From: Methylococcales bacterium
GTDB lineage: Bacteria > Pseudomonadota > Gammaproteobacteria > Methylococcales > Methylomonadaceae
Assembly (NCBI GenBank): GCA_030753675.1
Contig: JASMBU010000001.1
Span: forward strand, 1 to 64,000
Direction: 5' to 3'
DNA length: 64,000 bases
A program made the position numbers and the translations under genes. The stretch's first letter is position 1. Each line of letters opens with the position of its first letter. The notes under the pieces are model-generated. The model saw nothing but the letters and a program-made list of their open reading frames with translations, was not told the origin of the DNA and did not search any database. Shown piece after piece: positions 28,839 to 51,887 of this stretch.

Positions 28839-29864
28839 TTATAATTGATTTAATAAACGTTTAATGGGTGCAGGCAATCCTAATTTTGTATTTGTTTTTG
28901 GGAAATAACAAACACTATCTTCTAACACTATTTCTTTGATTTCTGTTTGCATAAACACAACCTGAAAGTCTAAATGATAATGGCTAAAAGTATGACGCCT
29001 GAGCGCCTGTAAATGATAGACCGGTACGAAACCTAAATATTCCTCACACCCATTCAGGGCACTCTCAAGATCACTAAATTCTGGCAAGCACCAAAGACCA
29101 GACCATATTCCTTTAAGTGGCCTCTTAATTAAAAAAACCTCTCGCTCATCACTCACCAACATCAAAAATATTTTCTCTTTAACCAGTAACTTTACTTTAG
29201 GTTTTGCTGCAGGTAATAAGTTAACTTGATTATTCTGAAAAGCAATACAAGATGCATTAACGGGACATTGCTCGCACAACGGTTGTCGGCGCTTACAAAC
29301 CATTGCCCCTAAATCCATCATTGCTTGAGTATAAGCTGCGGCCTTCTTTTGGGGGGTATAAAATGTGCTCAATTGCCACAATTCTTTAAGAACAGCGCTA
29401 TCCCCGGACCAGCCTGAAACACCGAAACATCGACTTAATACTCGCTTAACGTTACCGTCTAAAATGGGTGCTGATTGCCCAAAAACAATACTTAAAATTG
29501 CGCCTGCTGTTGAGCGCCCAACCCCGGGTAGTGCCATTAATGCCGGCAATGTGCTTGGAAATGTATCGCCCGCCGCAATCACCTTCGCACTCTCATGTAA
29601 ATATCTTGCTCGTGCGTAATACCCTAAACCCGACCACAAGGTTAACACCGTATCTAATGGCGCTGACGCCAGACTTTGTACATCAGGAAATGTTCTAATA
29701 AACTGTTGAAAATAAGGAATTACTATTGCTACTTGTGTCTGCTGTAACATTACCTCTGAAACCCAGACCCGATAGGGGCTCACTGGTTTTTGCCAGGGTA
29801 AATCTTTACGCCCCTCTAAAACCGCCCACTCTAAAATATAATTTTGAAAATCTATTGGATCCAT
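28839..29864 (-). CDS. mutY: Adenine DNA glycosylase MutY
   Basis: 341 residues. MutY removes adenine mispaired with 8-oxoguanine. The catalytic Glu is in SEVMLQQTQV, the helix-hairpin-helix is LPGVGRSTAGAIL, the catalytic Asp is in PILDGNVKR, and the 4Fe-4S ligands are C-x6-C-x2-C-x5-C in CKRRQPLCEQCPVNASC. A Nudix-like C-terminal domain recognises 8-oxoG. The start at 29864 is chosen over 29921 because the longer frame would run through the terminator of the upstream peroxiredoxin gene and because the family starts here. Confidence 0.93.
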   Translation of the reverse strand: MDPIDFQNYILEWAVLEGRKDLPWQKPVSPYRVWVSEVMLQQTQVAIVIPYFQQFIRTFPDVQSLASAPLDTVLTLWSGLGYYARARYLHESAKVIAAGDTFPSTLPALMALPGVGRSTAGAILSIVFGQSAPILDGNVKRVLSRCFGVSGWSGDSAVLKELWQLSTFYTPQKKAAAYTQAMMDLGAMVCKRRQPLCEQCPVNASCIAFQNNQVNLLPAAKPKVKLLVKEKIFLMLVSDEREVFLIKRPLKGIWSGLWCLPEFSDLESALNGCEEYLGFVPVYHLQALRRHTFSHYHLDFQVVFMQTEIKEIVLEDSVCYFPKTNTKLGLPAPIKRLLNQL

Positions 29865-51019: not shown

Positions 51020-51029
51020 AATAAAGCTT

Positions 51030-51077
51030 GTTCTCTATTTGTTCTTACTATAAGCTATAAGAAAACAAATAGAGAAC
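51030..51077. promoter_or_regulatory. Predicted LexA operator and promoter upstream of lexA
   Basis: The left arm reads GTTC, seven bases, GTTC (51030-51044). The right arm is its mirror (GAAC at 51074-51077). Together they make a 14-base perfect inverted repeat with a 20-base gap. TATAAG at 51049-51054 lies between the arms, with TTGTTC 15 bases before it as a possible -35. There is no T-run on either strand, so a terminator for tatC is less likely. GTTC-N7-GTTC is the known SOS box of alphaproteobacteria; the gammaproteobacterial CTGT-N8-ACAG is absent here. Confidence 0.55.
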
Positions 51078-51082
51078 CTAAA

Positions 51083-51718
51083 ATGTCCGACTATCACCCT
51101 CTTACCCGTAAACAACATGAAATTTATCAATTTCTAGTTAACCATTATCAACAATCTGAAACCGCACCCACATTAAGTGAAATTTGCATCGGGTTGGGTT
51201 TAAAATCTCGCGGCTCTCTCCATAAACATATTCAACACTTAGTAGAAGCAGGATTAGTTGAGCCTTCTAATCGCCAACAACGTGGAATTAGGCTAACGAC
51301 TCCGAAGCTATCAACAACTATTAACCTTTCTACAGATGAGACTATTCCTTATTTAGGCAAAATAGCGGCAGGACAACCGCTTGAAGTGATGGCTGATTTT
51401 TCAAGAATCACCATCCCGAGCCAATTAAAAACTAAAAATGAATGTTATGTATTACAGGTCACTGGCGACTCAATGATAGATCTAGGTATTTACGATAATG
51501 ATTGGGTAATTATAGAAAAAAGAAATTACGCCAACAATGGCGATATTATTGCTGCATTGATTAACAATGATGAAGTCACGCTTAAAATTATTGAACAAAT
51601 GCCTAACAAAACAATACTTATACCCGCAAATCAATCCATGCAACCCATGCACTTTGACCCTAATAATGTACAAATTCAAGGTATTTTAGTCGGTCAAATG
51701 CGTAGTTATATTCACTAA
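51083..51718 (+). CDS. lexA: SOS repressor LexA
   Basis: 211 residues. The N-terminal winged helix (LTRKQHEIYQFLVNHYQ ... GLGLKSRGSLHKHIQHL) is followed by an S24 autoprotease domain with cleavage pair Ala96-Gly97 (GKIAAGQP), Ser130 (VTGDSMID) and Lys168 (VTLKII). All catalytic residues are in place. The recognition helix starts SRGSLHKH, where E. coli has SPNAAEEH; it is closer to the SKSGIHRL of alphaproteobacterial LexA, which fits the operator type upstream. A 51-codon gene follows after 13 bases. Confidence 0.92.
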   Translation: MSDYHPLTRKQHEIYQFLVNHYQQSETAPTLSEICIGLGLKSRGSLHKHIQHLVEAGLVEPSNRQQRGIRLTTPKLSTTINLSTDETIPYLGKIAAGQPLEVMADFSRITIPSQLKTKNECYVLQVTGDSMIDLGIYDNDWVIIEKRNYANNGDIIAALINNDEVTLKIIEQMPNKTILIPANQSMQPMHFDPNNVQIQGILVGQMRSYIH

Positions 51719-51731
51719 ATAGAAGGAAATT

Positions 51732-51887
51732 ATGATGATTACAAAAATTCATATGCAAGATCAAATAAACAATCGTATCAATGATTTAATGGATGACGAC
51801 AAACTATCGAGAACCGATGAGTTTTTACAAATTTTTATAGGTCTTACAATGGTGGTTATTTTCTTTGTGGCTGGTATTCATTGGTAA
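51732..51887 (+). CDS. Small single-span membrane protein, probably co-transcribed with lexA (51 residues)
   Basis: A good AAGGA ribosome site precedes ATG at 51732 (ATG at 51735 also possible). The N-terminal 30 residues are polar and charged (QDQINNRINDLMDDDKLSRTDEF). The C-terminal 20 are a membrane helix (LQIFIGLTMVVIFFVAGIHW). It is 13 bases after lexA on the same strand and ends one base before the convergent mnmE. It has no family that I recognise. Co-transcription with lexA would make it DNA-damage inducible (inference), a setting where other bacteria carry division inhibitors. Confidence 0.7.
   Translation: MMITKIHMQDQINNRINDLMDDDKLSRTDEFLQIFIGLTMVVIFFVAGIHW

Follow-up and report, generated by a model that had tools for sequence, protein, structure and literature searches.

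The lexA gene of the analyzed Methylococcales bacterium stands behind a paired GTTC-type site and is followed by a small gene, and the small protein encoded behind such lexA-type boxes is the more interesting result than the operator itself. A sequence-only reading of the same DNA had described the site as an alphaproteobacterial-type LexA operator and had proposed that this lineage switched its SOS operator. That observation is essentially right and the operator is real, whereas the idea that the SOS regulon was switched is an overstatement. It is very likely, judged from the sequences, that a LexA other than the E. coli type regulates its own gene through this site and has a narrow regulon, and nearly as likely that the small gene is under LexA control as well. 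The complete reading, in which an autoregulatory LexA operator governs a two-gene operon of lexA and a small protein with a checkpoint role at the membrane, appears probable too when taken as a whole, if by a shade less.

The lexA promoter and its putative operator

The window, i.e. the whole stretch of 64,000 nucleotides that was analyzed, contains an exact GTTC-N7-GTTC motif (GTTCTCTATTTGTTC, 51030-51044) upstream of lexA, just as previously described. It is embedded in the putative left LexA operator arm TTGTTCTCTATTTGTTCTT (51028..51046, plus strand), whose GTTC half-sites start at 51030 and 51041, 11 bp apart, and is followed by the putative right, mirrored arm AGGTTCTCTATTTGTTTTC (51061..51079, minus strand). 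The inverted repeat GTTCTCTATTTGTT is perfect over 14 bp (51030-51043, mirrored at 51064-51077), which upholds the mirrored second site of the sequence-only reading, but the right arm consists of the half-sites GTTC and GTTT and hence reads GTTC-N7-GTTT, leaving the exact motif in one arm only. Five bases, and not six as stated before, separate the right arm from the ATG at 51083. The TATAAG element noticed between the arms is present in two copies (51049-51054 and 51056-51061), which mark a candidate -10 region (51049..51061, plus strand) and thereby the presumed promoter position, as read from the sequence; a consensus scan found no sigma-70-like promoter in this region. Counted from the first, the half-sites start at 0, 11, 33 and 44 bp (11, 22 and 11 bp apart), a spacing that would place all four on the same face of the helix, and the arms enclose the TATAAG copies. 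Also in agreement with the previous description, no CTGT-N8-ACAG box was seen in the sequence upstream of the window's lexA.

The bare motif is not rare. GTTC-N7-GTTC occurs twice in the window, compared with a mean of 1.31 in shuffled sequences and two or more occurrences in 36 of 100 shuffles, and in the bacterium's own genome (1.72 Mb) 35 occurrences vs 38 of the reversed pattern rule out an enrichment. An enrichment of the 14-mer with up to three mismatches was ruled out likewise (268 vs 318). With the 18-mer TTGTTCTCTWTTTGTTCT, again at up to three mismatches, 11 matches vs 6 were obtained in the own genome, two of the 11 being the lexA arms, and the stricter pattern TTGTTCTN6GTTCT has its single occurrence there at lexA. 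Since the motif is common by chance, it proves nothing by itself and the case rests on the comparison among relatives.

Conservation of the operator among relatives

A search of 61 genomes with the LexA protein returned 36 LexA genes with at least 49% identity in 32 genomes, the own genome included, and every one of these 36 lexA genes is preceded by a GTTC-type box. Promoters were compared in 30 fetched lexA loci, one per genome. All 30 contain a 19-mer with at most five mismatches to the left arm upstream of lexA, 25 have kept the exact GTTC-N7-GTTC, and 24 have a mirrored arm at an offset of 32-34 bp (22 within six mismatches of the seed and two with seven). The box stands without a mirrored arm in L052, L053, L055, L058, L059 and L060, and L058 contains four tandem GTTC copies at 11-bp steps. 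Boxes were also found at the six lexA genes outside this set (L178, L186, L187, L206, L212 and L397). Across the 61 genomes, TTGTTCTN6GTTCT was matched 53 times, with 28 matches at lexA (in 25 genomes), 4 at umuDC and 21 elsewhere, the last number being identical to that of the reversed pattern (21). The lexA operator of this type is common to three families of the order, and the paired-site, putatively autoregulatory lexA promoter that the sequence-only reading proposed is thus conserved in the promoters of relatives. On these comparative grounds, the GTTC-N7-GTTC site before lexA is real as one arm of an inverted repeat.

Of 13 usable loci of Sedimenticola-, Thiogranum- and symbiont-like type, 10 also have the exact motif before lexA, whereas L262, L263 and L268 lack it. 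Before the lexA of L264 (Ca. Methylobacter oryzae, Methylococcales), neither the exact motif nor a match to the box matrix described below was present. Two LexAs of another group, from a member of the Thiotrichaceae (L276, helix SKGTVHRY) and from Ca. Thiodiazotropha (L279, helix SKGTAHRH), have a mirrored GTTC-N7-GTTC before lexA, indicating that such operators are not confined to a single LexA group of the gammaproteobacteria.

Two LexA lineages within one order

The window's lexA (51083..51718, plus strand) encodes a protein of 211 aa with a winged helix-turn-helix and an S24 self-cleavage domain, which is identified as LexA by TIGR00498 (155.6 bits, cut-off 110.95) and in addition matches PF01726 (38.4, cut-off 23.7) and PF00717 (88.7, cut-off 23.3). 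Residues A95-A96-G97, S130 and K168, which we take to be the self-cleavage site and the catalytic residues of LexA, are invariant in 25 aligned LexA rows. The recognition helix SRGSLHKH was confirmed as previously read, the corresponding helix being SPNAAEEH in E. coli and SKSGIHRL in the LexA of alphaproteobacteria. In a LexA tree of 96 rows, for which 54 of 80 named loci were used (24 were never tabulated, L267 and L303 were dropped), LexAs with an SRGSLHKH-like helix form one group of 52 rows with 100/100 support. Alphaproteobacterial LexA forms a separate 100/100 group, in which a Rickettsiales MAG joins 11 alphaproteobacterial rows, and the E. coli type stands apart as well.

GTTC-N7-GTTC is described as the LexA operator of alphaproteobacteria (PMC8565304, PMC9578287, PMC3323433), and the system analyzed here resembles the alphaproteobacterial one in the GTTC direct repeat with 7-bp spacing upstream of lexA and in the helix pattern S-x-x-x-x-H. 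It differs from it in the extended operator GTTCTC-N5-GTTCT, which is usually mirrored at lexA, in the separate 100/100 group of its LexA and in the lack of a recA box in those genomes that carry this LexA. The previous description of a LexA with an alphaproteobacterial-type operator therefore holds for the operator, which is alpha-like, but not for the protein, which falls outside the alphaproteobacterial LexA group; with two separate 100/100 groups in the tree, an alphaproteobacterial origin of the window's LexA is not supported. The operator type common to both groups may go back to shared ancestry or to convergence, as the tree fits both.

CTGT-N8-ACAG is reported as the LexA operator of most beta- and gammaproteobacteria (PMC3323433), and it was also found before the lexA of E. 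coli. The canonical gammaproteobacterial LexA belongs to the same protein family as the window's LexA and occurs in the same order, but differs from it in group, helix and operator. In family f4 of the order, all five fetched LexAs are E. coli-like and have CTGT-N8-ACAG (four) or a looser CTG-N10-CAG (one) as box, while genome G015 holds LexAs of both types. Because of these two findings, the supposed switch is better put as two LexA lineages that, by sequence, coexist within one order. As a side observation, TTGTTCTGCTTWTGTTCT recurs in three f4 genomes with E. coli-like LexA (L191 in G054, L192 in G051 and a similar match in G039), and in L191 and L192 it stands upstream of one gene (MNQPSSLVVAISSRALFDLDESHRIF...).

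Among the genomes of the same family, nine with a completeness of 96-100% (G011, G012, G013, G017, G020, G021, G025, G029 and G030) contain nothing that matches this LexA at an E threshold of 0.001, at which the search does detect E. coli-type LexA at about 30%. The same nine genomes have no umuC-type polymerase and at most one dinB-like gene. Repeated loss of the SOS repressor is the likely explanation for their gene content.

A probably narrow regulon

Boxes at other genes were sought with a matrix built from the lexA sites (52 sequences, among them one probably false right arm from L055). As the matrix was trained on lexA sites, the scores of the lexA sites themselves are no evidence; in reversed sequence it gave 6 matches of at least 12 per 246,517 bases. 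In the own genome, neither the matrix nor the exact motif indicated a GTTC-type box at recA, uvrA, recN or the dinB-like gene, the latter label denoting a profile match alone. This dinB-like gene is the one Y-family polymerase of the genome, in which no umuC-type match was found. No box was present at recA in 30 fetched loci, 18 of them from genomes with this LexA, and the sole exact GTTC-N7-GTTC among the 30 belongs to L065 (G025), from a genome without this LexA. At uvrA (14 loci), recN (14) and dinB-like genes (24), all from genomes with this LexA, there was neither a matrix box nor an exact motif. Matrix matches at -12 of recA, which scored up to 14.9, were disregarded because they overlie the start codon in coding sequence. 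Upstream of recN, a loose CTG-N10-CAG palindrome was observed at a distance of 134-216 nt in six of the 14 relatives (L349, L351, L352, L353, L357 and L358) and not in the own genome. The sequence-only reading had proposed to search upstream of recA and uvrA for further copies of the motif; the lack of a GTTC box there in the own genome and in the examined relatives with this LexA speaks largely against a lineage-wide switch of the SOS operator, and a transfer of the general SOS regulon to this operator is not supported.

At umuDC, a box was found within 800 bp upstream in 12 of 22 umuC-type loci, while of the other ten two immediately follow lexA and the small gene, one is cut by a contig end and seven are without a box. 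The umuDC box of L185 scored only 12.0 bits, and the boxes of L178 and L212 are shared with a divergent lexA. The count excludes G037:C27, which is cut by a contig end, the fragments or broken copies in G026, G028:C92 and G034:C108, ImuB-like matches, and the matches of G038, G042, G045, G052, G053, G056 and G058. One umuDC with a 27.3-bit box (L411, G022:C31) comes from a genome in which no LexA was found, which argues against a strict link between LexA and the box.

In the own genome, the matrix scan covered 213 kb (overlaps counted) in addition to the window and revealed eleven other sites of at least 12 bits, none above 16.7. Ten of these fall within ORFs with a length of 80 aa or more, including the one at window position 28881 in an ORF of 360 aa, and the eleventh is intergenic. 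The flanking ORFs that were scanned encode a citrate transporter, an M23 peptidase, carboxyltransferase and Mur-ligase-like proteins, UreD and HupE/UreJ, and a further one of 157 aa had no Pfam match; to our knowledge, none of the identified ones is a known SOS gene. With boxes at many umuDC operons of relatives and at the small gene and none at recA and the other genes examined, the most plausible interpretation of the site is a LexA operator that controls few genes. For the own genome, with no umuC-type match and no box at recA, uvrA, recN or the dinB-like gene, no target was found other than the probable operon of lexA and the small gene.

The small gene behind lexA

The sequence-only reading missed a small ORF behind lexA (51735..51887, plus strand) that encodes 50 aa, or 51 aa from the ATG at 51732, starting with MITKIHMQDQINNRINDLM... 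and with a hydrophobic segment at the C-terminus. It is preceded by AGAAGGA, which resembles a ribosome-binding site (51721..51727, plus strand), and no terminator-like site was found between lexA and the small ORF, which probably forms a two-gene operon with the preceding lexA. A homologue directly follows lexA in all 36 loci. By profile search of the 61 genomes, the small gene was detected in 33, namely in 32 of 32 with this LexA and in one of 29 without it (G013). On a recA tree of 30 genomes, LexA and the small gene each change seven times, but only four independent contrasts fall on branches with good support; these four are all concordant (p 0.125). With dN/dS values of 0.08-0.44 in ten within-genus pairs, the small gene is under purifying selection.

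The H, M, D and Q of an HM-x-DQ motif are common to all 30 aligned small proteins, and M, D and Q (M-x-DQ) stay invariant when five copies from other families are added. The members are 44-62 aa long and have a hydropathy peak over 17 residues of 1.5-2.8 in 34 of 35 scored cases, with 2.59 for the window's small ORF. The exception is L053, and by eye L060 and the standalone copy of G016 are also without a hydrophobic segment; these tail-less variants speak against a purely membrane function. AlphaFold predicts a single long helix (mean pLDDT 76, pTM 0.35). Scans of members against Pfam, NCBIfam and, for four members, PHROGs gave nothing significant (best E 0.04), and DUF3961 (E 0.043) and CrgA (E 0.096) were rejected as homologues because they are below threshold. 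A search of plasmids with the small protein from L418 had no match. We conclude that the small protein represents a family without known match, which is probably membrane-bound. Among the literature matches listed, from a coverage that excludes subscription papers and preprints, nothing concerned the GTTC operator or the small protein in Methylococcales; the one methanotroph paper that names LexA merely includes the gene in a list (PMC12911358).

Copies of the small gene also occur away from lexA. Two of them, both in G014, are divergent from umuDC, and a box (21.7 and 12.0 bits) occupies the region between the genes. In G016, a standalone copy of 44 aa has a 21.7-bit box approximately 90 nt upstream. 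With the small-protein profile alone, 369 genomes of the class were searched, and about 1.5 kb on each side of the matches was fetched (L414 is cut). Eight genomes were positive: the own genome, G014 and six genomes from three other families, the last with E values of 2.4e-5 to 2.3e-4 per genome, at which less than one chance match is expected in 369. These six genomes are not independent, since G144 and G267 belong to one genus and G194, G306 and G401 to one family. Five of the six copies have no lexA in the fetched locus, and a GTTC-type box precedes their ATG by 54-134 nt, with best scores per locus of 11.8-19.5; four of these boxes are paired, and in L415 the second arm has only 9.8 bits and an exact GTTC-N7-GTTC is missing. 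The sixth copy follows a lexA with a paired box of 22.6 and 21.4 bits. Copies without a box nearby were found in G013, G016:C45 and G008:C239, and a partial copy in G007:C28 is located at a contig end. The G013 copy is an orphan small ORF on the minus strand (L391, G013:C99, approximately 1550-1715) in a genome without detected LexA, and lies near a gene whose translation resembles UvrA.

Proposed mechanism and alternative explanations

This LexA has kept the cleavage and catalytic residues, and a classical LexA switch acting on a two-gene operon is the simplest reading. The chain that we infer would begin with LexA binding to two opposed direct-repeat boxes, which would set four GTTC-like half-sites on one face of the DNA around the operon promoter, and with LexA on both boxes the promoter would be kept off. 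Induction would follow DNA damage, when RecA-stimulated self-cleavage of LexA would release the promoter, and co-transcription of the two genes would lead to joint production of LexA and the small protein. After its predicted membrane insertion, the small protein would act as a checkpoint factor, for which a delay or block of division in the manner of SosA, YneA and SidA is the most likely mode.

A quite different use of the inverted repeat would be an RNA hairpin in the lexA leader that controls translation or stability. The RNA fold is indeed stable (-17.9 kcal/mol, z -5.1, none of 200 shuffles as low), but the box also occurs at umuDC without lexA and six of 30 lexA promoters keep it without the mirrored arm. 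Furthermore, the 39 differences between left and right arms in 336 cells are distributed as expected for protein contacts: the six spacer columns account for 35 and the first half-site for 4, whereas the GTT of the second half-site is free of them. G-U pairing would still be possible for 15 of the 39. We regard a hairpin in place of a LexA operator as highly improbable. That this LexA commands a full SOS regulon, with boxes at recA and other genes too degenerate for the matrix, also seems improbable, if less extremely so. The matrix was trained on lexA sites and gives Sedimenticola boxes scores of just 8-13, and variation of the half-sites is seen in three of those lexA loci, among the 30 compared, that are without the exact motif; against this stands the distribution of the exact motif itself, which was absent at all examined uvrA, recN and dinB-like loci and present at recA only in G025. 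We retain an autoregulatory LexA operator with a narrow regulon as the likeliest reading.

For the small protein, the position of SosA and YneA beside lexA and the presence of SidA in a bacterium with the GTTC-N7-GTTC operator make a division checkpoint factor the most likely role by analogy, and we hold inhibition of division itself to have a little less than an even chance. The main rival is a role as co-regulator of LexA, or of UmuD or RecA, comparable to DdrR for UmuDAb and gp7 for LexA of Bacillus thuringiensis, precedents that are described in PMC11332147. Such a function would agree with the linkage to lexA in 36 of 36 loci and with conservation in the polar N-terminal motif and not in the hydrophobic tail, which a few variants lack, but it is hard to reconcile with the strong C-terminal hydrophobic segment of 34 of the 35 scored members and with the copies whose own box, in fetched loci devoid of lexA, makes them look like effector genes; on balance, we consider it rather unlikely. 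More doubtful again is an SOS-induced membrane toxin comparable to TisB, or a membrane-anchored protein with another role in repair: the small size, the hydrophobic C-terminus and the LexA-type box would suit a toxin, but a conserved polar N-terminal motif and tail-less variants are ill-suited to a pore peptide. If the checkpoint role applies, this family of tiny membrane proteins might even be a core SOS effector of gammaproteobacteria with GTTC-type LexA, replacing SulA as the checkpoint of division upon DNA damage, and the only LexA target left in reduced genomes like the one analyzed here, a suggestion that we make more tentatively than that of division inhibition. In such reduced genomes the SOS response would then have shrunk to 'stop dividing'.

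Comparison with known systems

SosA and YneA are described as small SOS division inhibitors with a single transmembrane segment, encoded next to lexA in Gram-positive bacteria (PMC6851548). The small protein shares with them the size, one hydrophobic segment, a gene beside lexA and a LexA-type box, but differs in the C-terminal position of the segment, the polar N-terminal motif and the location of its gene downstream of lexA on the same strand. SidA of Caulobacter is reported to be an SOS division inhibitor of 29 aa in the inner membrane (PMC4211646), and for this bacterium the GTTC-N7-GTTC operator is documented (PMC9578287). The two are alike in being tiny proteins of GTTC-N7-GTTC bacteria, in the membrane for SidA and probably so for the small protein, but the protein described here is longer, has a conserved polar motif and is linked to lexA. 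At the sequence level, the comparison covered family libraries, in which no significant match was found (best E 0.04).

Bacteria have repeatedly evolved new means of controlling division upon DNA damage, as exemplified by SulA, SidA, YneA and SosA, and LexA operators differ among lineages. Against this background, the present case provides a GTTC-type operator in gammaproteobacteria that lies outside the alphaproteobacterial LexA group and is tied to a conserved small protein without known family, and the small gene became visible only when LexA boxes and the short ORF were compared together. It offers a testable candidate SOS effector, exemplifies how very narrow a LexA regulon may be, and warns against deducing a classical SOS regulon from the mere presence of lexA.

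UmuDAb-DdrR of Acinetobacter, in which LexA is reported absent and UmuDAb is the repressor (PMC11332147), likewise combines control of umuDC by DNA damage in a gammaproteobacterium with an accessory small protein, but differs from the present system, which has a true LexA. Among phages, none of the best 20 of 44 LexA matches exceeded 34%. Among plasmids, the LexA search yielded one close relative (51%), from Methylobacter sp. YRD-M1 (L399, NZ_CP091426.1, 1662-4302), where umuC-umuD is divergent from lexA and the small gene, the latter annotated as hypothetical protein. A gene for a Tn3-family transposase is located about 1 kb beyond this complete module, which may therefore be mobile.
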